This document shows, one piece after another, positions 14,816 through 64,000 of a stretch of DNA of 64,000 nucleotides. This stretch comes from Chytridium lagenaria. Lineage: Eukaryota; Chytridiomycota; Chytridiomycetes; Chytridiales; Chytridiaceae. The notes below the pieces were generated by a model. It did not search any database. It was not told the origin of the DNA and was given only the letters and a program-made list of their open reading frames with translations. The position numbers and the translations under genes were made by a program. The stretch lies in the NCBI GenBank assembly GCA_025449115.1, contig JAHLKC010000122.1, positions 1 through 64,000 of the forward strand. The letters are read 5' to 3'. Numbering within the stretch: the first letter of the stretch is position 1; each line of letters begins with the position of its first letter.

Positions 14816-17041
14816 TTATTGTTTGCGAGAAATCAGACCTTTCATCATGTCAAAGGTGTTTCCATCAGGTTGGAGTAAATAAACCTCGCCGTCATCGGAG
14901 ACGGCTTTGAGAAGCCCTGATGTATCGATACCTTCAATGACAGCTGATCCTTTTCCTTCAAGTTGGACATGTTGGTTGCTACAATAACATCAGATATATC
15001 ACCCAAAAAATGCTCATTACCTGTGAATCCAATATTCGTAATATTTCGGCAAGAATTTTCCGAACGGAAAGTCACTTTCGTCTGATGCGAAGGAGGTGTA
15101 AAGGTGTTCAAATGTGGTGAGAATGCGCGGGAGAACTTCTTCGAGGGTGAGTTCCTCTAGGCTAGAGTTTGTGGTGGAATTGTGGGTGCGGATGAGATCG
15201 TTGACAGAGAGAGTTGGACGGCTATTCGCGACATTTATTCCGCAACCTTTTTTTTGTGGGGGACGTGATAGGCGATATATTTTTTGCGTTTCGAAAAATG
15301 TATGATAATCGAAAAGAAATGAAAATTGAAGCAATAAGTAAGGAAAGTGGAAAAAAAAGAACGCAGGTGACGAAAACGTAAAAATGCTGAAACTCATTGA
15401 AATACTCATAATAAAACACGAAGCCGTAAAGCAAATGGCGAAATAATAAATTGCCGCATTGAAACGAAAAGTAACGAAAAAATACAACGTACCTATAAGG
15501 ATATGGAAAAACCCAGACTCATACGAAGAAGTCACTAAAATGCCTCCAAGTTTTCGATAAATATTCTTTCCATCCTCATCAACCTGTGAACAATAAATAT
15601 CATTTGGCCACTTGATTCTCATAGGAAGTCCGCGGTAACCTGGTTTTGATCTTATCGCCTCAACTGCAGCCAATGCAAACAAATATTGAATGAAAAGCGC
15701 TGTTTTCGGGTTCTTGTGTTTCAGTGAAAAGGAAAACTGAAGGCAACCATCTTGGGATATCCAAGAATTTTTGCCTCTTCCTAAAATCAGGTCAAAAAAT
15801 GTTTGGAGAAAAATAGCTACCTCTGCCAGCGAGTTGCTGTGATCCGACGCATGTTAGACCTACAGGCGCATTTCCAAAGACCTTTCCGTTTTTCTCCAAA
15901 AGCGTGTGAGTTGATTGGACAATCTCGCCGTACAAGAGAGCTGAACCAAACTCCCAGCTAGGCCTTGACGAGTCAATCGATGAACGGATATTCCTCAGGT
16001 GCTCGAAGTATGTGGTAATATTGAATTTTGGCGTTTGTTGTGTTGTAGGTAATTGATCTTGATGGTACACAATATCCACCTCGGAATCTCCACCAACCCC
16101 AAAAGTGCTGTATCAACACTTTCTCCGTGAATTTGAATAGAGTTGACAGTATCTTGTATCCGGATGCTCTGTGTCCCAAAGAAGCCACATTCCGACAGCC
16201 ACAGATTCACAGAGTTAAATTGTGAATCTTTGCAAAGGAACATGGGGGTTGGTGAATACTCTTCGCTCACGACGGTTTCGTTCAAGCGAAGTCCAAACTT
16301 TTGAAGTATGGATTTCATTAATGTTTCACGTTTGTCATTGGACTCCAAAAGCTGTTTCTTATGTTGTTGAGAAAGAACGCTATCTTTGGCATCGGTTTCC
16401 AGATGTGGCCCACAGAGAATAACTTTGCCTTGTCCGAAATCCGTTGCAACGATCGCAACTTTCCCAACAGCATTATCAACAACTCCATCGGTATACCTTG
16501 CTAAGATCGCCAATCCATCCGCTTTTTCATCTTTGCACTCAAAGAAGGGACCCCCATTGGCCAACACACTGAAGACACTATTCTCCAACCCAGCGATCCC
16601 TTCCACTTTGACACCAACAGCACAAGCCGAAGTTTCATCATTATATCGAAACCCTGGTGTACAGCTTCCCTTTGCCGTCCCATCCAAAAAGGCCAGAGGC
16701 CGAGAACCGATCACCTCGTATTCATTCCGCCCTCGCTCAAATTCAACCCGGGAGCTTCCAAAATATGCTCCAGCGCATATCCCAAGATAGTTCCCGCCAC
16801 TTTGAACCCAATTCTTGATCTTGGATGTCCCATCGGGCGATAAGCTCTCAACGTAAGGCACATCTCGACCACCAGGAATGACGAATAAGGACGTTGTCCC
16901 CTCCCACGGCTCCTTGGACACTACCTCAGAGTTCACAGGGATAACATCGTAGCTGCTATTCAGAAGTTTACGCAGTGCCTTCAGCGTCAGATCGACGCTT
17001 CCTTTTGAAGTGCCAGCTCCAGCATAAACCAGCACATTCAT
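14816..17041 (-). CDS. BPL1: Biotin-protein ligase (holocarboxylase synthetase)
   Basis: Attaches biotin to acetyl-CoA and pyruvate carboxylases using ATP. From the ATG at 17041 (MNVLVYAGAGTSKGS) an uninterrupted exon encodes the fungal N-terminal amidotransferase-like domain, with FVIPGGRD, GGNYLGICAGAYFGS and KVILCGPHLE. The ligase domain follows. The ATP/biotin loop is GLTCVGSQQLAGRG joined across an intron (about 15826-15785) to RGKNSWISQDGCLQF. Then come RIKWPNDIYC with the catalytic-site Lys region and KLGGILVTSSYE. The C-terminal cap domain (SAVIEGIDTSGLLKAVSDDG ... YLLQPDG) ends at a stop codon at 14816-14818. A larger intron with AT-rich sequence spans about 15495-15240. One frame shift lies near 16090. 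Convergent with the unrecognised gene (18 bases between stops) and divergent from RNase T2 (45 bases between starts). Confidence 0.92.
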
Positions 17042-17086
17042 TCTGGTTAAACGCAAATAATAATTTTTTAGCGCAAACATTCAAAG

Positions 17087-19023: not shown

Positions 19024-21233
19024 TCAACAAAAAAAAAAGCTAACATGGCGGAAGGTGCAATGGTTTTTAGCGGTTGACAGTAGCAACACTAAAGAAATGT
19101 TCTGAAGAAAAAAGCAACAGAATGTAAACGGAAAACATAAAAACTCAATGAGGTAGACGACAAGTAGTAGTATCCAGGCGACAAGCATAACCACTGCAAC
19201 AACACCCAAAAATGCTGTGATAGCAAGGCGTGGGGCATCAACAACACTTGAAGATGTCCTACTAGCAGTCGATCCCTGTCCACCCACGACGCCACCAGTG
19301 GAGGTCGGGACAGCCGTGATTCCCACCAGTCACAGATTCAACACTGTCCGTTAGCGTGCTGGTAGCAGTAGCGATCGACACTGAAGTCCTTGTCGTGTGA
19401 TTCGCAGTCCCGAGCACGACACAGTTCCATTGGCGAACACAGTGCATCCGTTTGAGCAAATTTGCGATCCGTCAGGTTGGTTTGTGCATTCCGTGTTGGA
19501 AGCTGGCTCTTCTTCGTCTGAGCCGCAGTGGAGTACAGTACCGTGAAAGTGGCAATCACTGCCGTCGCCGCCGTTACCCCGGCCGCTGTGGTTATCGTCG
19601 CAATGGATTACATCACCCGTCAAAGTGGCAGTTCTCCAGTCCTTCGCAGACAGGCGTGCCGTCATCCAAAACCTCACAGTTTTCAGGGACTTCTTCATCT
19701 GGTTCGTCTGAGCCGCAGTGAAGCTCGTACCGTGGAAGTGGCAATTATCATCCACCACCACCAGAGCCGCCACCTCCGTTGTGGTTATCATCGCAATGGA
19801 TAACGTCGCCGTCAAAGTGGCAGTTTTCGGCGTCCCTCGCAAACAGGCGTGCCGTCATCAAGCACTTCACAGTTTTCTGGGACTTCTTCACCGGGTTCGT
19901 GGCTTCCGCAGTGTAGTTCGAGGGTGCCGTCGTCAAGCTCATCGTAGTGGCAGCCAGGAGGGGGAGAGGGCCTGGGGTTGGGAGATGGGGATGGGATGGC
20001 GTGGGGGTGCTGCTGGTTTTGGGGGCCGTGGTGGATGATTTAGTGGTTGAAGTTTTAATGGTGGTAGTGGATGTCGAGACAGTGATAGATGAGGTCAGCT
20101 GCAGGGTGGTTGTAACAGAAGTTGGCAAAACTGAAGAGATCGAGGTCGACTCTAAGGTTGTAGCTGAAGAGGTCGGCAATGGAGAAGAGGTCGAGGTCAA
20201 AATAGCCGTCGTGGTGGTAGACGCCGTACTGAAGGACATGGTCGTAGATGTTGTGATGGGAGTGGATACCTCGCAAGTATCCTTGTCAAGACCATCACGC
20301 TCGTACCCCTTTTCATCAAAATATATGGTTAGTTTCTTTAATTTAGCAAGTTTTAACAATTTAAGACTCACCCTAATGCGTGCGCGACGGCATTGATCAT
20401 CGGCCCATCGGTGGGCCTCGGCAAGGTATTCGTCAGGCTTGGCTCCACAAAAATTCTTGGATTCGACGCACTTGACGATCGCATCCTTTGCTTGAGCACT
20501 GCACGTACACTAAAGAAGCTTATCCCGTTAATGCTTCATCAACCGTGAAAACGAAAGAGATGGAGGGGAGGTTTTTTTTTTACCTTCAACTGATCGCAAG
20601 TAATGGCAAACAAGTTCCAGGCCTTTCCAGGACCACATGGTGCAAGACCTTGGTTAGGAGCGGACACTGTGCAGCTATCAAAGCAACCTTGGTCCCCTGG
20701 AGGCGGTGGAGGACGGTTGTTGGGGTCAGGGAGAGGAACCCAGGGTAACCAACAGGTGTGGCTGATATTGTAAAGACGGGGTGGGAAGTGGTCTTCTTGA
20801 TGACTGCAAAAAGTCACAGCTTGTTCACGAGCCCAAGCATCGGATCCACACTTTTCGCGCTGATTGCAAGCAACGACGTTATCCCACCACTTGTCGACGC
20901 AGGAGCACTATAGGTGACAAAAGTATAAAGAAATCGGTAAGAAGGAGGGTCCGACGGGAGATGATGGATACAGATGACTTACTTGGTAAGTGGAGCAGAG
21001 ATTGTGGTTGGCCATTTGACGCGAGTTCCACATGGGGAAGGGCTGATTCTTGCCGCTGACTGATAACACTTTGAGGTGAGGCAAGTTCTGTTGTTGACGA
21101 TAGGATTGTTTTGGCGAAGCTCTAGGTTACGGTATGGAGACATACCCCCGTCAAAGGGGATGGCATGAGTCGATGCGACAGCCATCGCGAGAGCGACGAG
21201 GCATGAGGTGGCTACAGTATTGATGAGGTGCAT
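19024..21233 (-). CDS. Secreted Cys/His-rich protein: two CFEM-like modules, Thr-rich stalk, CHF[D/H]Gx3HC repeats, C-terminal hydrophobic anchor
   Basis: Not a named family; described from sequence. The ATG at 21233 gives a signal peptide (MHLINTVATSCLVALAMAVA). Module 1 has nine Cys in the order C-x4-C-x11-C-x11-C-x4-C-x-C-x10-C-x5-C-x13-C, after adding one base in the T run at 21015-21017 (plus strand). Module 2 (about 20730-20410) repeats it as C-x3-C-x11-C-x12-C-x4-C-x-C-x10-C-x6-C-x18-C. The C-x-C-x10-C core resembles CFEM domains. A Thr/Ser-rich stalk of about 110 residues follows (20290-19990). Next come four or five short units CHFDGDVIHC or CHFHGTVLHC, spaced by acidic DDNH or GSDE segments (about 19965-19530). 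The end is Ser/Thr-rich followed by a strongly hydrophobic tail (LAITAFLGVVAVVMLVAWIL), consistent with a GPI anchor or membrane segment. At least three frame corrections are needed in the repeat part; the exact stop is uncertain. Metal binding is inferred from the Cys/His repeats. Confidence 0.62.
19530..19968 (-). repeat. Short Cys/His coding repeats, CHF[D/H]Gx3HC
   Basis: Minus-strand units: CHYDE...LELHCGSHE, CHFDGDVIHCDDNH, CHFHGTSFHCGSDE, CHFDGDVIHCDDNH and CHFHGTVLHCGSDE. They are joined by a repeated VPENCEVLDDGTPVCEG spacer. Each unit pairs Cys-His with His-Cys around a Gly, a pattern suited to metal coordination. DNA copies are similar enough to suggest internal duplication. Confidence 0.72.
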
Positions 21234-22212
21234 GTATGAAGGTGAAGTTGTTCCTAGTAGAACGGAAGCGAGGAAGGTCCTCGTTTTATTTTAAGGCTAG
21301 TCAAGTCAGGGTTATTCCTGTATAGTTTTGAAGCCCTTGCGCCAGCTTTTCTCGTCTCTGTTTTTTTTTTCCATCCGGCCATCTTTTTTGTTCTCAGGCA
21401 AAAAGGGAAGGGACTGATAAGCTGAAGCACCCAAAGCACAAGAATTCATTGATGTTAAACTCTACACGTCTTTACTTATTTATTTCCATAGAATAATTAA
21501 AATAAAACCACTGTCATCATTTTCACGATAAAATTACAATGTGTAAAAAGAGAAAAAGAAAAAAGAAGAAAAAAAAAAGAACAAATAACAGAAAAATATA
21601 AAAAAACAAAAACCAGGAAAAATATAAAAAGTAAAAGCGACAACAAAAAAAATCAAAATAATTTTCCTTTGCAAACGGCGTTGAGTACCTCAGAGGTGAC
21701 GTGCTACCTTTCCCTTTCTCTTCACGTAACCACGTTGATTTTCTATGTAATTGAGGAGCCCGTGTTAAAAGTGATATTTTTGCAAGTTAAACAAGCATCT
21801 GCCATAAACAGCTTTTTCTGTACGCGGATAACTTTATGACATTGATTCCTTAGGGTTTGCGTGAATAAAATACTTGAGATAATAAATATTCCGAGTAATT
21901 ACAAATCACCAACTGCAGCAGTGCTTTTTCAAATGTCCAATGTGCAGGGGTGGTGGCAAACTGTATTAAAAACGGCCGGACGTAGACGTGTTATCAGCAT
22001 ATTACATGACAGAAGGAGTAAAGAAAAAAGGAAAAAAAAAGTTAAGAGTAATGGCCAAGGGCATGACCAAGGGGTTGAAGAAAAAGGAGAGAAAAAAGAC
22101 AAAGCCATAGACAGATCTCCAACAAAAGTACCCGACTGGTTATAAATAGGGCCTCTCGTGGCTCTCTTCTTTCATACATCTCCAGTTCTCCATCCACAAG
22201 CACTTTTTTACA
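21234..22212. promoter_or_regulatory. Shared divergent upstream region of the two large Cys-rich secreted genes
   Basis: The minus-strand Cys/His gene starts at 21233 and the plus-strand four-module gene at 22213, so this 979-base region serves both. It is AT-rich with a poly-A/T-rich tract at about 21530-21660. A GATA-type core (CTGATAAG) lies near 21414. No supported coding region is seen. Confidence 0.5.
22141..22149 (+). promoter_or_regulatory. TATA box of the four-module CFEM-like gene
   Basis: TATAAATAG lies 63 bases before the start codon at 22213. A C/T-rich stretch about 30 bases downstream is a plausible transcription start. A perfect TATA box suggests a strong or inducible promoter. 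Confidence 0.6.
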
Positions 22213-24048
22213 ATGCTTGCCTCCGTTGCCGCCTTAACCCTTGCCCTCGTGTCCTCTGCACACGCTTTGGCCCTTCCTGAGACGGCTCCCGTCACTCCCG
22301 TGTACCCTTTCATCGGAGATTACGATTCTGGTAATTCCCTCCTGAAATATCCCGATCAATAATGTGGTTCTGCAATACTAACCTACAATAATAATTACCA
22401 GGCGTTTCTGAATGTCTCTAACGGCTGCTACTTTGCCTCCACCTGCGGCAATCTCGGCGCTTCTGGTACTCTGCACGACGAGAATGAAGCGGTGAGGGAT
22501 TGCGTGTGCAGTGAAGACTTTGCTGCCGCCGTCCTCACCTGTGATGCTGCCTCGAGCTGCTCCGAGTTTTCTTCGGTTATCGCTGAAAGAGTCAATGACT
22601 TTTGCCTTCACATTCAAGAACACCTTGAGGAGGAGCATGACCATGACCACGAGACCCCCATCACAACCACTCTCGACACCCCTGCTGATCCGACCACCAC
22701 CCTCGAGCAGCCAGCTGAGCCCACCGCCACCACCACCATCGAAATCCCGGCTGAACCGACCACCACCACGGTCGACATGCCTGCACCCACTGAAACCGCA
22801 TCCCCTCTCCCCATCTTCCCCTTTATCGGCGACTATCAAGCTCCCATCTCAGAGTGTCTCTACAACTGCTACTTTGCCTCCACCTGCTCCAACGTGACTC
22901 CCGGCTCCCTCCATGACGAGAACGAGGCTGTCAGGGATTGCGTGTGCGGTGATGCATTCGCGTCGGCCGTGCTTTCGTGCGATGCTGTGGCCTCGTGTCC
23001 CGAGTTTTCGTCTGGCGTCGCAGAGAGCATCAATGATCTTTGTCTTCACATTCAAGAACACCTTGACGAGGAGCATGATCACGACCACGACCACGACCAT
23101 GAGACTACCACCATGGCTACTCTCGAGCCCACTCCCACCACTGCCGTCGAGGTTCCCGGAGAATCGACCACCACCCTTGAGCAGCCAGCTGAGCCCACTA
23201 CCACCACCACCATTGAGATCCCGGCTGAACCGACCACCACCACAGTCGACATGCCTGCACCCACTGAAACCTCATCCCCTCTCCCCATCTTCCCCTTTAT
23301 CGGCGACTATCAAGCTCCCATCTCAGAGTGTCTCTACAACTGCTACTTTGCCTCCACCTGCTCCAACGTGACTCCCGGCTCCCTCCATGACGAGAACGAG
23401 GCTGTCAGGGATTGCGTGTGCGGTGATGCATTCGCGTCGGCCGTGCTTTCGTGCGATGCTGTGGCCTCGTGTCCCGAGTTTTCGTCTGGCGTCGCAGAGA
23501 GCATCAATGATCTTTGTCTTCACATTCAAGAACACCTTGACGAGGAGCATGATCACGACCACGACCACGACCATGAGACTACCACCATGGCTACTCTCGA
23601 GCCCACTCCCACCACTGCCGTCGAGGTTCCTAGAGAATCGACCACCACCCTTGAGCAGCCAGCTGAGCCCACTACCACCACCACCATTGAGATCCCGGCT
23701 GAACCGACCACCACCACGGTCGACATGCCTGCACCCACTGAAACCTCATCCCCTCTCCCCATCTTCCCCTTTATCGGCGACTACCAAGCTCCCATCTCAG
23801 AGTGCCTCTACAACTGCTACTTTGCCTCTACCTGCTCCAACGTGACTCCCGGCTCCCTCCATGACGAGAACGAGGCTGTCAGGGATTGCGTGTGCGGTGA
23901 TGCATTCGCGTCGGCCGTGCTTTCGTGCGATGCTGTGGCTTCGTGTCCCGAGTTTTCGTCTGGTGTTGCAGAGAGCATCAATGATCTTTGTCTTCACATT
24001 CAAGAACACCTTGAGGAGGAGCATGACCATGACCATGATCACGAATGA
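22213..24048 (+). CDS. Secreted four-module CFEM-like protein with His/Asp-rich linkers
   Basis: The ATG at 22213 gives a signal peptide (MLASVAALTLALVSSAHALA). After one intron (about 22332-22401) four modules follow. Each holds eight Cys in the order C-x3-C-x5-C-x17-C-x-C-x10-C-x5-C-x14-C, a CFEM-like spacing. Each ends in an acidic/His run (EEHDHDHDHDHE in modules 2 and 3, shorter in 1 and 4). A Thr/Pro-rich linker (TTTTIEIPAEPTTTTVDMPA) leads to the next IFPFIGDYQAPISECLYNC. Module 1 is divergent; modules 2-4 are nearly identical at the DNA level, 474 bases apart. The protein ends right after the last His run, with no anchor, so it should be secreted free. One extra base near 22419 breaks the frame in module 1. 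CFEM domains bind heme in some fungi; His-Asp runs usually bind zinc, nickel or copper. Function is inferred only. Confidence 0.72.
22801..24045 (+). repeat. 474-bp near-identical tandem coding repeats (about 2.6 copies)
   Basis: The codon for the first Cys of each module recurs at 22855, 23329 and 23803, exactly 474 bases (158 codons) apart. The copies differ at only a handful of sites, which implies recent duplication or gene conversion. The in-frame unit length keeps the modules in register. An assembler could easily collapse or expand this array, so the copy number is uncertain. Confidence 0.9.
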
Positions 24049-24829
24049 TGCTTTTGTGGTGAATATGTTTGTTGTTGATTTTAAACCATATGTGGTTTCC
24101 TCATAATATGTTTGGATGGGGGTTGACGTTGATTGATACAGATGTTGAACCTGCATGTTGTTCAAGGTTTTTACAATAAATGAACCTCGTTTTTACTTCC
24201 ATATCATTTGGTAATGAATTATTCGCTGAGAGAAATATATTGTACGAATGTGATTATTATTATAAAGTTCTGTAAGGCCTCTACTACTTGCCATACTTTT
24301 TGAGTTGAATTCCAGGCTCCGTGTGTATGATTATATCACTATCTGCTATCCATGGGTACTTTACGTTGTTACTCTCAGAGAAACTCAGAGAGAAAAAGAC
24401 ATCAACAAAGAAAGAAAAAAAAGGAAAATATGCGCACTAGTATAGATCGTATGTGACGTTGGTTCTTTGAAGAATAGTATGAAGAAAAGGCGAGTATGTA
24501 TTATAAGATGGATGATAAAAGCATGGCGTTAGTAAATTTACAACATCCCAAACTAACCCACCTCAGTACGTGCTCTCCACTGGCACCCCTGAAATAGGTC
24601 CAATTCATACAACCCGATGCCATGCAGGTGGGAGAAATGATGACAAAAGTAGGTACATTTTCACAAAAACTTTCTTTTTTTAATTGTGATTAACGAAGGT
24701 CTTTTATTTTTTAAAAAAATTAAAGAATGAAAATGAATTCAAGGCCATAAGCATGAGGCTTTGTACTTATTAAAAATAAAACATAACAAAGGCTCATGGA
24801 CATTAGGAGGCTGCAATGTTTTTCCTTCT
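24049..24829. other. Convergent intergenic region
   Basis: Between the 3' ends of the four-module gene and the small CFEM gene. AT-rich, with an AATAAA-like poly(A) context near 24174-24180. Nothing else is recognised. Confidence 0.45.
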
Positions 24830-25472
24830 TCAAATGAGGCAGAAAACAACAGGGAACACGGCCATCATTCCAGCAATGAGAGAAAACTTTAAGGATCCAG
24901 CAGAAGACCTGGAGGTGGTGGTGGAGGCCGCAGGTGCAGAGGCGGTGGCGCTTGTGACGGCACTTGAAGTGATGAGTGTCTGGACATTGGTTGCCCCTGG
25001 GCCGGCTGTTGCACGCGGGGCGGACGTAGAGGGAAGGGCGGTAGCAGAGGTGGTAGCTTTATCAACGTCCGAGATAAGAGTGCCATCTTCGTTCCACTAT
25101 TAATAGAAAAGAATAATTAGATGGATGTTGTAAAGATATGCATGGTTGTTAAAGGGATCAACTTACGTGCTCGCCAAGATGTGAGCAATGATCTTGAATG
25201 GTGGAGACAATCTCTGAAACGCTGTTGGTGTCGCTGCAGCGCTGGGAAATGGCGCATTGGGTTGAGGCTTCGATGAAGGGAACAGAGCATGCACAGAGGA
25301 AGCTGTCACGGGATTCGTGGTTTGAGAAATCAATGGCTGGGGTGCAAGGAGGCGGGGCAGAAGTAAGAGATTGGGAGTAGCATCTTCTGATGCAAAGACG
25401 GTTAATGGCTGCCTCGACTGAGGTGAATGCGATCGCAGCAAAGATGAGAAGAATTAGACGAAAAGAGGTCAT
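24830..25472 (-). CDS. Small CFEM-type secreted protein, probable GPI anchor
   Basis: The ATG at 25472 gives a signal peptide (MTSFRLILLIFAAIAFTSVE). An eight-Cys domain follows: C-x3-C-x11-C-x16-C-x-C-x10-C-x5-C-x16-C. The Asp three residues before the C-x-C pair (RDSFLCAC) sits where CFEM proteins carry the heme-iron-binding Asp. This makes it the closest CFEM match in the window. After an intron (about 25168-25099) come a Ser/Thr/Ala/Pro-rich stalk and a hydrophobic C-terminus (LIAGMMAVFPVVFCLI), typical of a GPI-anchored wall or membrane protein. It is about 190 residues long with no frame breaks. It is divergent from the ZIP transporter, sharing 752 bases of upstream DNA. Related in cysteine spacing to the two larger proteins upstream. 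Confidence 0.75.
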
Positions 25473-26224
25473 TTTAAGAAATTGGAGGTGGGCGGGGTGG
25501 GAGAGAGATGTGCTTTCTCTAGTAAGTTCTGGTGGTTTCGTTTAAATACTTTTTATACTTTATGTACTTCTAACACAAGTTATCCATTAATACATATGCA
25601 CACATTACAATCATGGGTAGGGTTCAAGTCTTTTTTTTTCTCTTCAGAGTTAAAGTCAAGGGTGACGATGGAAAGGAATTAAGACGGACGGAAAGGGAGG
25701 CAAAAGCGGAGAGGAGACGAAGGATGTAGGACGACGAGGAGGAAGGAGGAAGGAGGAGCGCTTTTGAATGCGACGCCATTGGAGAACTTGCAAGACTGGA
25801 GCACAACGAGTACCCTCCTGCTGCATGCGAGTATTCTGATTGGACAGTCAGAAAAGGTTCCTTAACCAGAGAGGCCCTCAAAAATAAAATAAAATTAGAT
25901 TTGAGAAAAAGTTTATTTATCAAAAAAGACGGTTTTTTTTTTATGTTCCTCATTTTCCCCGAGTCGCTCTTTTTTTTTTTAAAAAAAACCAAGGAGCTTT
26001 ACGTCCGTACAGTCTCTTAGGGTTATCCTTAACTACCTTTGCGCTTTTAAATTATGTTTTAAAAAACTATAATCTACTGAAGAACTGCTTTAAAAAGGCC
26101 GGTATCCGACGAGCTAACTGTCTTTTGCGATATTTATCACCCACATTACCTTAAAGTTGTTCATCATATCTCACTCACAACCTCACTCCCCTGCTTCTCC
26201 ATCATCGACGTACATCTTTCCATC
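25473..26224. promoter_or_regulatory. Shared divergent promoter region of CFEM and ZIP genes
   Basis: Contains a minus-strand TATA-like TATAAAAAG at 25549-25557, 77 bases before the CFEM start. Near the ZIP start there is an AT-rich TTTAAAAAGG (26089-26098) and a ZRE-like ACCTTAAAGTT (26148-26158). Open frames in it (for example about 25624-25992 on the minus strand) are low-complexity and unsupported. Confidence 0.5.
26148..26158. promoter_or_regulatory. Zap1 ZRE-like 11-mer upstream of the ZIP gene
   Basis: ACCTTAAAGTT matches the yeast zinc-responsive element ACCTTNAAGGT at 9 of its 10 fixed positions. It lies 67 bases before the ZIP start codon. One mismatch in one copy is weak evidence, and whether this lineage has a Zap1 orthologue is not known from the window. 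Confidence 0.3.
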
Positions 26225-28214
26225 ATGCGAGGCATCAAGACACTTCGTTTCATCGCTACTTTTCTGCTCCTCGCAATTGTGGTCCCTGCCGCTGTGAACG
26301 CCGTAAGTCCAAATCTTCTTTGCCCATCCTTTCCATATCTCACACTGCTTGTGATTATTGTGAAAAGCTTTTAATCTGAATACCATACATTTCACACATA
26401 CAGGCCAGCGATTCACACGAAGGTCATACCATGAAGGTCACGACCACGGCGCTTCCGGCACCATCATAGTTGAACACAAGCCCAACCCCGCTGCAGCAGT
26501 GTACAAACCGGCAGACTTTATCACCGACCTGTTTTCAGAGTATGGCACAGGCATTGGAGCCAACCGCATCCTTAACCTGGATGACTTGGTGCAAATCTAT
26601 CAAGCACTTTCCATCATTGGCGGCTCTCAAGAGGAGGACCCTCACGCAGGTCATAACCATGGCTCTAAAGCTTTGGTGAAAAGACAAGTTCCCGCCAACA
26701 CCACTGAGTTTGACCCTGTAAGCCTTACATTCAACCCATAATATCGCTTCTCTGCAGCACTCATGATTCCACAACTAATTGGCTTTTCTCTATCAGTGTC
26801 TACTTCCTTACGACCTCATGACCATCTACGGTCTGAACACTACGGCCGGTCTCAACCGCACCCAATTCGAGCGCCTAAGTCCCGCTCTGATCTATGTCTC
26901 CGCTGCAAAACTCTGCAAGGACAAAGTCTTTCCAACAACTGAAGTCAAGACAGAGAAGCCCAGACCGGCAGCAGGACTTGTCTGGTTGTACTCCATCATC
27001 GCCAACGTCCTCGTTACCGCTGGTTGCATGCTCGGTATCGCGTTTGTTCCGTTGATGCGAAAGTCGCCGTTCATTGCAGATTTAACGTTGTCATTCTTTA
27101 TCGCGCTTGGTGCTGGGACGCTTATCGCAGACGCTTTGCTTCACCTTATTCCTTCCGTGAGTATCCATCCGTTCAACAGCTTTGGTTTCTCACCTATTGC
27201 TTACCTTTCAATCAAATTCAGGTCCTCGAACTTCACTCCCACGGTCTTGGTGAAGAACATGAACACGACCATGGCTCTATCGACTACATCAATGACTTTC
27301 CTTACATCTGGAATATGTCCATCGTCATGCTTGGTCTCTACCTCTTTTGGTCCGCCGAACAACTCCTCAGCTACCTTCACACTTACCATTCCGAAAAGGC
27401 CGGTCTTCCCTTCCCTATCGCGCACTCGCACGCCCATACCCACAGCACCCCATCCCACGAACATGGCGATGAGGTCGTTATTGTGGCGACGTCGTCAGAT
27501 GTTGTAGATGGGAAGGATAAGACGTCAAAGCAAATGACGCTGTGGCAAGAGATGAAAACTGTGAGACCCGTCGCCATCTTGATTTTGTTGGGTGACTCCC
27601 TCCACAATTTCGTTGATGGGTTAGCTATTGGTGCAAGTTTCTCAGTCAGTGTCAAGCTCGGTCTTACCACCTCTATCGCAGTCCTTTTGGTAAGTTAGCC
27701 TCGCATTCATCACAACACCCAAATCTCACCTTCCCACGTTCTTTTTTTTTTTCCCCCAGCATGAACTCCCGCACGAACTCGGTGACTACGCGATCCTCTA
27801 CGCCTCTGGTTTCTCCGCTCTCCGTGCCGGCATCCTCAACGCCGCCTCCAACCTCACCGCCTTTATCGGCATGTGCATTGGAATTGGCGTCACCCAAGCC
27901 GCATCCGCATCCATCATGAAAAGTCAACAAGCCATCTTTGCCATCGCATCCGGCATGTTCATATACATTGCTGTTGCGGATCTCCTTCCTGAGCTTCGTG
28001 CCGTGCATGCCATCTCTGGAGTGGTTGAGCCTGCGTATGAGGAGGTTGAGGGGAAGGATGGTGAAGTCAAGAAAATGAGGGTTGGGAAGGATGTAGGTGG
28101 GAGACGATTCATCCTTTCGCGTGGACAAGAATTGTCGCTCAGCATGCTGGTTTATCGATCGGTTGGCTCATCATGGTGTTAATTGCTCTGTTTGGTGAAA
28201 GTATCAAGGTCTGA
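26225..28214 (+). CDS. LIV-1-type ZIP metal transporter (SLC39A4/8/12/14-like)
   Basis: ZIP proteins import zinc, and some import iron or manganese, into the cytosol. The ATG at 26225 gives a signal peptide (MRGIKTLRFIATFLLLAIVV). A His-rich stretch follows (HEGHTHEGHDHG after adding one C at 26430), then an extracellular domain. This has CLLPYDLMTIYGLN and GLNRTQFERLSPALIYVSA; the latter contains the PAL motif of LIV-1 ectodomains. The membrane part has about eight segments, starting at WLYSIIANVLVTAGCML. A His-rich cytosolic loop (HSHAHTHSTPSHEHG) precedes TM4 (GDSLHNFVDGLAIG). The LIV-1 metal-site motif HELPHELGD in TM5 spans an intron near 27690-27759. The protein ends after GWLIMVLIALFGESIKV; one frame correction is needed near 28139. 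The first residue HELP (not EELP) is like ZIP4/6/10/12. Divergent from the CFEM gene. Confidence 0.9.
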
Positions 28215-43900: not shown

Positions 43901-46104
43901 TGGAGACCGCGATCAATATTGGATTGTCGTGTAATCTGTTGACAAAGGATATGAATTTGATTTTAGTGAAGGGGGAGAATGGGAAGGAGGTTGGCGGGGA
44001 TGTGATTCGACAGCAAATTGACGGGGCTTTGGAGAGATTTTGGGGGGGAAAGGGGGATAAGGGGTTGAATGAACCGATTGAGGAGGGTGAAACCTATGGG
44101 CTTGTTATAGATGGTAGCGCGTTAATTTACGCGTTAGAACCCGCCAGCATTGACGGGTTTCTCGACCTTGCGACCCGCTGCGGTGCCGTGATATGTTGTC
44201 GCGTGTCTCCGCTTCAAAAAGCGCAGGTTGTTGAAATGGTGAAGAGCCGACGTCATGCGCTGTGTCTTGCTATTGGGGATGGGGCGAATGATGTGAGTAT
44301 GATTCAGGCTGCGAATGTTGGGGTTGGGATCGCAGGGGAGGAAGGATTACAGGCGGTTATGGCGTCAGATTATGCGATTGGACAGTTTAGGTACTTGGTA
44401 AGGCTGTTGTTGGTGCATGGGCATTGGTCCTATGTGAAGACGGCCGGGATGATTTTAAACTTTTTTTTCAAGAGCTTGATTTGGGTGTGAGTGGAATACT
44501 CTTTTCTTCATTTGTTTTTTGGTTTTGGAAAAGAAACTAATAAGAGACTTATGCTGCTTTCTTTTTTTCTTCTTAGATTCGTCTTGTTTTGGTTCCAGCT
44601 TCATTGCGAGTTTTCGGCCGAAGTAAATTTGGATTTGACGTTTATGTAGGTTAATTTTCACATAATTTTTCGACTATTCGGGGTTAGCCAAAAGTTTTAC
44701 ATTATTCTATCCGGAGTCCAACATTATCTTCTAACTATGTCACAGGCTCTTATACAACATCGTCTTGTCCTCACTTCCCGTTATAGCAATGGGCGTCTTT
44801 GACCAAGACATCTCCGACACCATCGCCGTCACCTTCCCATGGTCTATCGTGCCGACCACGCCTTTTCCCCTTCACCCTCTTCCGCTTCACCGCCTTTGTC
44901 CTCGAAGCCGCCTACCAAGCCGCAATATGCTTCTACTTTACCTTTTACGGGTTCAGCGAAACCCCATTCGACCATTCCGGTCGTTTACTAGAAAAACCAG
45001 AACTCTCGGTGATGCTATCCATCATGGCGGTGTTGAACGCAAACTTTCTTGTCGCGGTCAACATGAACAGTTGGAATGTAGTGTCTATCACTACGATAGG
45101 GGTGACGCAGGTGTTACCGTTTTTGTATACGGCGATATACTCTGCACTCCCTATATCGCTTGTTGAGGGATTTGTGGGGCCGCTTTATAGTGCCCCAATG
45201 TTCTGGTTGAACCTCATCCTCACGTCGTTTCTCTGTCAGTTCCCTCGGACCGTGTTTCTCTTTGGAAGGAGAACAGTGTTCCCCACGGATATACATATTT
45301 TGCAGGAAAGTCAAGCGTGGCATGCAGATTCGACAACGAGTTTAAGTGAGCAGAGGATCAGCAATGCAGAAATTACATGCCATGAGGTGAAATGGGCTAG
45401 GAGTGAACGCCATAGCATTGCTTCAAAGTTCGTGGAGGCAGGAAGACCTAGCATAAGTAGACAGAGCGTCGGAGGACCAAGCGCGTACAGACAGAGTATG
45501 GCTGGACCCGGTGTGAATCGACAGAGTATAAGCGTGGCACCAGCAAATCGACAAAGTGTAAGCGGACCGTCAATAGACAGAGCCTAAGTGGACCAGCTGT
45601 CACAAGACCCATCTTTAGCGGCCCCACTCACAATATAACACCCCACATATCAGAAAAGGAGATCCCGGTTCATCAAGTTGAATCAGATCACATATTGACA
45701 CCACCCGCCCCAGCATATGTTGAACATCCTAAACCCCGGACGGCTCACAGCGTCCCCGACATCCCCGCAATAGCACTCTCCTCCGCCGATGTAGAGCGCC
45801 AACACAGTTCTGGATCCATGTACTCCATGGCCTCTGTCGTCCGCACACCTGTACATATCGCATTCAGCGACGACGTGATCACAAAGCCAAGAGAAAGCGT
45901 CAACATCTTGACTGTTATGAAAACCGGACAGATGTTAAGGAATCGCGGTATTCGTTTTCACAGTCTCCGGGGGCGAGGGACATCATTATGGGGAGACATA
46001 GTATTTGTGCACCGATGGATGCGAATGAGGAGGCGGAGACGGAGGCTAGGAGAGTCACACATTCCACTCCGTTGTTTGTGCGAACGAATACGGCACCACA
46101 ATGA
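40958..46104 (+). CDS. P4-type ATPase, Dnf-like phospholipid flippase
   Basis: Moves phospholipids from the outer to the inner membrane leaflet; normally paired with a Cdc50/Lem3 subunit. The ATG at 40958 gives MGGWKERIMKGLKKR, then RTTKYTAFNFIFKNLYEQF and the M1-M2 region ending AVIILTAAKDGMEDWKRHKS. The actuator domain has CYIETKNLDGETNLKIRKGL (P4-type DGET). The phosphorylation motif DKTGTLTQN is split by an intron (42664-42720). The nucleotide-binding segment YCKGADSVIYERL is near 43375. The hinge GDGANDVSMIQAANVGVGIA is near 44275. C-terminal membrane helices run from about 44450 to 45260. A long cytosolic tail with RQS-type repeats ends RGYSFSQSPGAR...NTAPQ, after restoring one G near 45948. 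Other frame corrections lie near 42780-43200 and 44840. Closest in tone to the fungal Dnf1/Dnf2 group. Confidence 0.92.
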
Positions 46105-47367: not shown

Positions 47368-48330
47368 ATGGCAGAGCAGGTGAGCCCATCAGATGGATCA
47401 AGCAGAGGAGCAGCAGTTGGGGGGGCAGACGATGGACGAACGGCATGGAAGGAGTGGATTCGCATGATGTGAGGAGGGGGTCAGAAGGAACGGAATGGAT
47501 GATGGAGGAGGTGGTGGTGGGGATGAGGAGTTTTTATGATTTGGCAATTGGACTTGGATCAAAAAAAAATCCAACTTTTTTGATGGATGACTTGTGGACG
47601 GGTCGATGGATGTTGAGGTATTCATCGACAAGCTAGGACTCACGCGAGGGGGGGAGATGTCGTTAAGGGAGTCTACGGAGGGAGGGATAACAAGATGAAC
47701 CTCTGCGTTGGGCATATACTTCATGCAGAAGAATCAAGGCATGCATTTTACTTATCTCGCATAATCATCATCATCACAGACCGAGAAGGCTTTCCAGCGT
47801 CAGGCAGGGATCTTCCTGAACTCCAAGCTTGCGGCCAAGAAGAAGGGAGGCCCCCAGCGTTGGTACAACGATGTCGGTCTTGGCTTCAAGACCCCCAGGG
47901 AGGCTATTGAGGGCACCTACATCGACAAGAAGTGCCCCTTCACTTCTGGAACCATCTCCATCCGTGGTCGTATTCTCACCGGTGTCGTTGTCTCGACAAA
48001 GATGAAGAGGACCCTTATCATCCGCCGTGACTACCTTCACTACATCCCCAAGTACAACAGATACGAGAAGCGTCACAAGAACTTGGCCGCTCACGTCTCC
48101 CCCGCCTTCATCGGTGTTGAGGCTGGTGATGTCGTGACCGTTGGACAATGCAGGTGAGGAGAGATTCTTTTTGGCATTTACCATATTTATTACTTCCACT
48201 TGTCTTAATGACTGACCTTGTATTTCTTTCCCACACCAGGCCCATCTCCAAGACCGTCCGCTTCAACGTCCTCAAGGTCCAGAAGAAGACTGTCAAGGGA
48301 GCCGGTGGCAAGCAGTTTGCCAAGTTCTAA
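47368..48330 (+). CDS. RPS11: 40S ribosomal protein uS17 (S11)
   Basis: Core small-subunit ribosomal protein. A tiny first exon (MAEQ, 47368-47379) ends at a GTGAGC donor. A 400-base intron follows, a usual layout for fungal ribosomal protein genes, and coding resumes at 47780 with [20 protein letters not shown]. Conserved segments are [79 protein letters not shown] and [20 protein letters not shown]. The protein ends KQFAKF at 48330. A second intron lies at 48154-48240. It is GC-richer and more codon-biased than its neighbours, as expected for a highly expressed gene, and the coding frame is unbroken. Confidence 0.97.

Positions 48331-52376: not shown

Positions 52377-64000
<11,624 letters not shown>

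Follow-up and report, generated by a model that had tools for sequence, protein, structure and literature searches.

A candidate metal-capture unit in the chytrid Chytridium lagenaria: an eight-cysteine surface protein gene divergent from a LIV-1-type ZIP gene at two loci

Gene pairs of a zincophore and its transporter are known from the Dikarya, with Pra1 as the binder. In Pra1–Zrt1 of Candida albicans, as in aspf2–zrfC of Aspergillus fumigatus, the gene for a surface or secreted, histidine-bearing protein lies divergent from a ZIP transporter gene. Pra1 and Zrt1 have a common upstream region, and limiting zinc brings about their joint expression (PMC3386192, PMC5751234). The Pra1 core consists of an HRXXH motif and a third histidine (PMC12663325), and in the chytrid Spizellomyces punctatus the Pra1 orthologue is reported to lack synteny with a ZRT1 orthologue (PMC3386192). 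Here, we describe four genes of the chytrid Chytridium lagenaria, between positions 19024 and 28214 of a 64,000-nt stretch of DNA (the window). One of them, for a LIV-1-type ZIP, and its neighbour, which we denote C, are divergent in a head-to-head arrangement that recurs at a second locus; C encodes a small surface protein rich in cysteine. On sequence grounds and by analogy with Pra1–Zrt1, we see about an even chance that ZIP and C form one functional unit for uptake of a divalent metal, most likely zinc. We found no report of such a locus among the listed titles and abstract openings of papers on CFEM, zinc and ZIP, on chytrid zincophores, on LIV-1 ZIPs or on Chytridium lagenaria, although an earlier description may exist.

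The transporter gene (26225–28214, plus strand; start and stop as read, with internal frame breaks) encodes what its sequence identifies as a LIV-1 ZIP, for which zinc import is predicted. Three exon pieces (26977–27159, 27243–27689 and 27760–28002) match Pfam Zip with 38.5, 66.1 and 63.8 bits (cut-off 35.1), and EF-hand_Zip reaches 26.8 bits, slightly below its cut-off of 27. LIV-1 ZIPs carry HEXPHEXGD in transmembrane segment 5 (TM5) and the ectodomain CPALLY motif C(X26)CPALLYQ(X5)C (PMC9861476). The window ZIP has the Zip profile together with the TM5 signature: HNFVDGLAIG of TM4 and HELPHELGD of TM5 occupy 27603–27786, separated by an intron, with HELPHELGD at 27760. Its ectodomain contains C-x26-SPALIYV-x5-C (26797–26916), in which the spacing is exact and three residues are replaced (S for C, I for L and V for Q); the ZIP4 ectodomain 4x82 aligns weakly at this region (E 0.32). 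These features, with the histidine-bearing N terminus and the near-cut-off EF-hand_Zip, are those of LIV-1 (SLC39) ZIPs such as ZIP4, ZIP6 and ZIP10, from which the window ZIP differs in being fungal and in having its gene paired with that of a wall-type binder. A genome search for ZIPs gave 25 matches on 10 contigs among the best candidates scored, and in the regions fetched around the best-scored matches, TM4 HN-x2-DG and TM5 HExPHE co-occur only in the window and on a second contig, C48. The remaining matches look Zrt-, Zip9- or ZupT-like by eye; one on contig C20 resembles a CDF protein more than a ZIP.

Gene C (24830–25472, minus strand; BC829DRAFT_454881) starts at 25472 and the ZIP gene at 26225, leaving a common upstream region of 752 bp (25473–26224). 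C is intact, with exon 1 at 25472–25167, a single intron and exon 2 at 25096–24830, and its 190-residue product is 100% identical to the nr record. The protein has, by inspection, a signal peptide and a hydrophobic tail of glycosylphosphatidylinositol (GPI) type; between them lie an eight-cysteine domain ending in C-x-H-x3-H and a Ser/Thr/Ala-rich stretch. The domain (25167–25409, minus strand; cysteine gaps 3, 11, 16, 1, 10, 5 and 16) is predicted to be mostly helical (predicted local distance difference test score 82), and the structure model places H-x3-H on its last helix.

Searching the genome with exon 1 of C returned three rows: the exon itself, a paralogue on contig C48 (C′; E 4.8e-23, 43% identity) and a row at E 0.54 that contains a stop and was taken as noise. 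C′ (BC829DRAFT_417579) starts at 47454 on the plus strand of C48, 2.3 kb from the Pfam-matched exons of a ZIP gene on the opposite strand (44239–45185, minus). Each LIV-1-type ZIP detected in the genome, two in all, is paired head-to-head with a member of the C family. By inspection, the intron of C′ is positioned as in C, and the His-Asp-rich sequence GEDHSEHEGEDHDHDHDHEGEGH precedes its GPI-type tail. When open frames of at least 50 residues from 20 kb of C48 were compared with those of at least 40 residues from the window, only ZIP and C were common to both loci at E ≤ 1e-4; therefore, the pair was kept and not a longer segment. The ZIP exons are 69%, 56% and 67% identical between the loci, with synonymous divergence (dS) of 1.85, 2.02 and 0.67, and the exons of C and C′ are 43% identical, with a dS of 3.5 and a proportion of synonymous differences (pS) of 0.74. 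Three of these four exon pieces have synonymous sites near saturation (pS 0.69–0.74, dS 1.8–3.5, nonsynonymous divergence (dN) 0.29–0.57), and because of this, we consider the duplication of the pair to be old and its divergence constrained, as judged from those three pieces, the ZIP 3′ exon being the exception.

The presence of the divergent pair at two places in the genome suggests that its members capture metal, most likely zinc, jointly. One alternative is that an ordinary cell-wall protein gene came to lie beside a ZIP gene by chance and that the two were co-duplicated with no joint function. Fungal genomes contain many GPI-type cysteine-rich wall proteins, the two copies of the pair may go back to a single event, and genome searches found no copy of A or B, the other two genes of the window locus, elsewhere. 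Co-duplication alone could thus explain both pairs, less easily their long retention: synonymous divergence is near saturation in three of the four exons, no further common gene was found, the divergent order was kept, histidine and glutamate positions are conserved and C′ has a His-Asp tail. We consider chance linkage unlikely.

The conserved positions emerge from comparison with gene B (22213–24048, plus strand; BC829DRAFT_447399; 577 residues). The sequence-only reading had described a plus-strand gene of four modules, and B indeed comprises a signal-peptide exon followed by one open frame (22402–24048) holding four eight-cysteine modules with Thr/Pro-rich linkers and (HD)n tails, module 1 being broken at its start; the nr model (P0003) has a shorter exon 1 and omits the first cysteine of that module. 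A 474-bp unit is repeated in tandem at 22691–24044 (plus strand; 2.9 copies, 97% matches), and identity between modules 2 and 3 reaches 99% across 474 bp, pointing to recent tandem amplification or repeat homogenization. The scores of the B modules against C and C′ were reached by 2 of 2,000 and 0 of 2,000 shuffles with cysteines fixed, respectively. Aligning C, C′ and the four modules leaves 15 invariant columns, nine of them not cysteine, including the H, E and H of C-x-H-x-x-E-H. These comparisons show that the homology of B and C is not limited to their cysteines. A genome search with the C′ domain gave six rows at E ≤ 10, namely C′, C and the four B modules, and a search for further B module copies in the genome found none.

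The C-x-C-x10-C-x5/6-C core that the same reading attributed to all three secreted proteins is real: C-x-C-x10-C-x5-C-x12-20-C has seven matches in 190,179 fetched bases, compared with one in total over 20 shuffled sets. Its extension, C-x-C-x10-C-x5-C-x12-17-C-x-H-x3-H, also has seven matches in the 190 kb and none in 20 shuffles, and is confined, within the fetched DNA, to the window locus and the C48 locus (A module 1, the B modules, C and C′). The proposed histidine richness holds for B (30 in 577 residues; C has 4 in 190 and C′ 10 in 191), whereas in A histidines are modest over most pieces and concentrated in the C-terminal repeats. Gene A (19024–21233, minus strand, its end as given in that reading; several frame breaks) seems by inspection to encode a signal peptide, two C-x-C modules, a Ser/Thr-rich stretch, Cys/His hairpin-like repeats and a hydrophobic C terminus. 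The core of module 1 (20788–20907, minus strand) reads CSC-x10-C-x5-C-x13-C-x-H-x3-H, and the second module, by inspection, has x6 in place of x5. The C-terminal repeats (19354–19918, minus strand) match one another at 44%; in genome searches, the C-terminal piece matched only itself and the neighbouring repeat, and the A exon that served as a query hit no other place.

An eight-cysteine, C-x-C-containing secreted protein invites comparison with CFEM proteins such as Csa2, Rbt5 and Pga7, which likewise have eight cysteines in the order C-x3-C…C-x-C…C…C, a secreted or GPI-type architecture and a mostly helical model. The published consensus is PxC[A/G]x2Cx8-12Cx1-3[x/T]Dx2-5CxCx9-14Cx3-4Cx15-16C, and the same paper reports that the Chytridiomycota it covers lack CFEM (PMC4530338). 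C reads C-x3-C-x11-C-x12-D-x3-CxC-x10-C-x5-C-x16-C, with neither the proline nor the A/G of the consensus; six of eight spacings fit, and those from C3 to Asp and from C6 to C7 do not. In C′, the last spacing (x14) also falls outside, B (gaps 3, 5, 17, 1, 10, 5 and 14) departs from the consensus, and an aspartate at an allowed distance occurs only in C and C′. The proteins described here further differ from CFEM in carrying C-x-H-x3-H after the last cysteine. The CFEM profile (PF05730) matched none of C, C′, a B module and two A pieces at E ≤ 10, nor any of ten longer pieces at E ≤ 1; a genome-wide search gave no match, but its controls gave none either. The profile and consensus results together speak against CFEM membership, which the sequence-only reading had proposed, and therefore leave heme unsupported as the ligand. 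Of the single uptake system suggested in that reading, what stands is a ZIP importer linked in divergent pairs to cysteine-rich, histidine-bearing surface proteins, with the ZIP/C pair recurring divergently at a second locus. As conceived there, A and B would belong to this system too, and metal would travel from the secreted binder to the wall protein and on to the ZIP.

These results bear on a second alternative, in which the eight-cysteine proteins are very divergent heme-carrying CFEM proteins, the ZIP imports iron and the locus belongs to an iron island with siderophore genes. An iron role is kept possible by a set of siderophore genes (SidA-like, GNAT domain and nonribosomal peptide synthetase (NRPS) domains) roughly 24–49 kb downstream on the same contig. 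This hydroxamate siderophore set spans 52763–64000 of the window (minus strand), L050 931–1695 and 4960–5901 (minus strand) and L048/L049 (C122:75768–77051). Genes for a P4-ATPase and MoaC intervene before it, and we judge the iron reading improbable. Condensation, adenylation and carrier domains of NRPS were present in all nine window frames scanned in 52763–64000, and the GNAT (Acetyltransf_8) domain adjoins the only SidA-like ornithine monooxygenase match of the genome search. A 2008 survey lists no ferrichrome synthetase for the single chytrid in its table (PMC2644324).

If ZIP and C act together in zinc uptake, C would be a small GPI-type surface protein whose helical domain, with four putative disulfides among its eight cysteines, ends in two histidines one helical turn apart. 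This pair, right after the last cysteine, may hold a metal with the help of acidic residues or His-Asp runs. Zinc retained or enriched in this way at the wall and membrane would then be handed by C to the histidine-rich ectodomain of the LIV-1 ZIP for import; by analogy with Pra1–Zrt1, both C and C′ would be wall proteins that keep zinc and supply it to LIV-1 ZIPs. B, which is secreted and strings together homologous modules with His-Asp tails, may serve as a free multivalent binder of the same domain origin; the case for A as a third part is weaker. As in the Pra1 type, a putative binder gene is divergent from a ZIP gene, here at two loci, and an H-x3-H core is common to the HRXXH-plus-His site of Pra1 and the site proposed here. 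In contrast to Pra1–Zrt1, the partner has a GPI-type eight-cysteine domain and the ZIP is of LIV-1 type with a CPALLY-like ectodomain. Pfam scans covering the B piece, pieces of C and A and the C′ domain found no HRXXH (PF13933), and a genome-wide search, run without a working control, gave no match; because the Pra1 domain is unmatched, the likeness is one of proposed working and not of membership. Metal binding by His-Asp runs is not very specific, and the shared upstream regions could equally serve opposite regulation, so the wall proteins might instead sequester excess zinc or copper while their ZIP neighbours are regulated oppositely. A ZIP, however, is an importer, and a divergent importer/binder pair is known in zinc scavenging (PMC3386192, PMC5751234); we regard buffering as very unlikely.

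Several observations weigh against a joint role of ZIP and C in zinc capture. C of the window holds only its four histidines and has no His-Asp tail, and the kinship of A to the other secreted proteins is weak. The ZIP of the second locus has HELPHELAD in TM5, which departs from the LIV-1 signature by one letter, and in the comparison of the two loci the ZIP 3′ exon looks younger than the other pieces (pS 0.44, dS 0.67, dN 0.21). A Zap1-like element with one mismatch occurs once in each of the two ZIP/C upstream regions; over the whole window, such elements are at chance level (3 found, 2.4 expected). The sole SidA-like siderophore gene found in the genome search lies about 48 kb downstream of the locus. 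Homologues of B and C outside C. lagenaria were not found in the protein collection: all matches listed were from this species, for C one at E ≤ 1 among 1,391 candidates, for C plus C′ at least two among the 7,997 candidates scored and for a B module one among 13. These searches depend on five-residue words in common and on a length similar to that of the query, and remote relatives may therefore be missed.

The four genes and their two divergent pairs are arranged as first read, with starts at 21233 (A, minus), 22213 (B, plus), 25472 (C, minus) and 26225 (ZIP, plus); A and B have a common upstream region of 979 bp (21234–22212). Only C can be read without interruption: in this sequence A, B and ZIP have broken frames, with no read-through, and the three may be pseudogenes. 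Most likely, the breaks are draft-assembly indels, because in near-identical contig pairs gap openings rival or exceed mismatches, unlike in real alleles (C101/C56, 77 mismatches and 114 gap openings in 9,808 bp, 97.7% identity; C225/C47, 114 mismatches and 100 gap openings in 12,263 bp, 97.8% identity). These stretches look like haplotype copies remaining in an assembly with a high indel error rate. An ordinary BPL_N (biotin-protein ligase N-terminal) gene lies at 15995–17080 (minus strand).

We tentatively propose, as less likely than not, that the C. lagenaria lineage invented a zincophore system independently of Pra1 from a new eight-cysteine C-x-H-x3-H domain. At each of two paralogous loci, a wall-anchored form would be genetically fixed to an animal-type LIV-1 ZIP, and recent tandem amplification would have given rise to a secreted form with several modules. 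If so, a chytrid would have a second, unrelated partner protein in the same gene arrangement, and fungi would have evolved divergent binder/ZIP units on more than one occasion. A LIV-1 ZIP whose extracellular partner is marked genetically would also become available, bearing on how metal is delivered to the histidine-rich ectodomains of this family.
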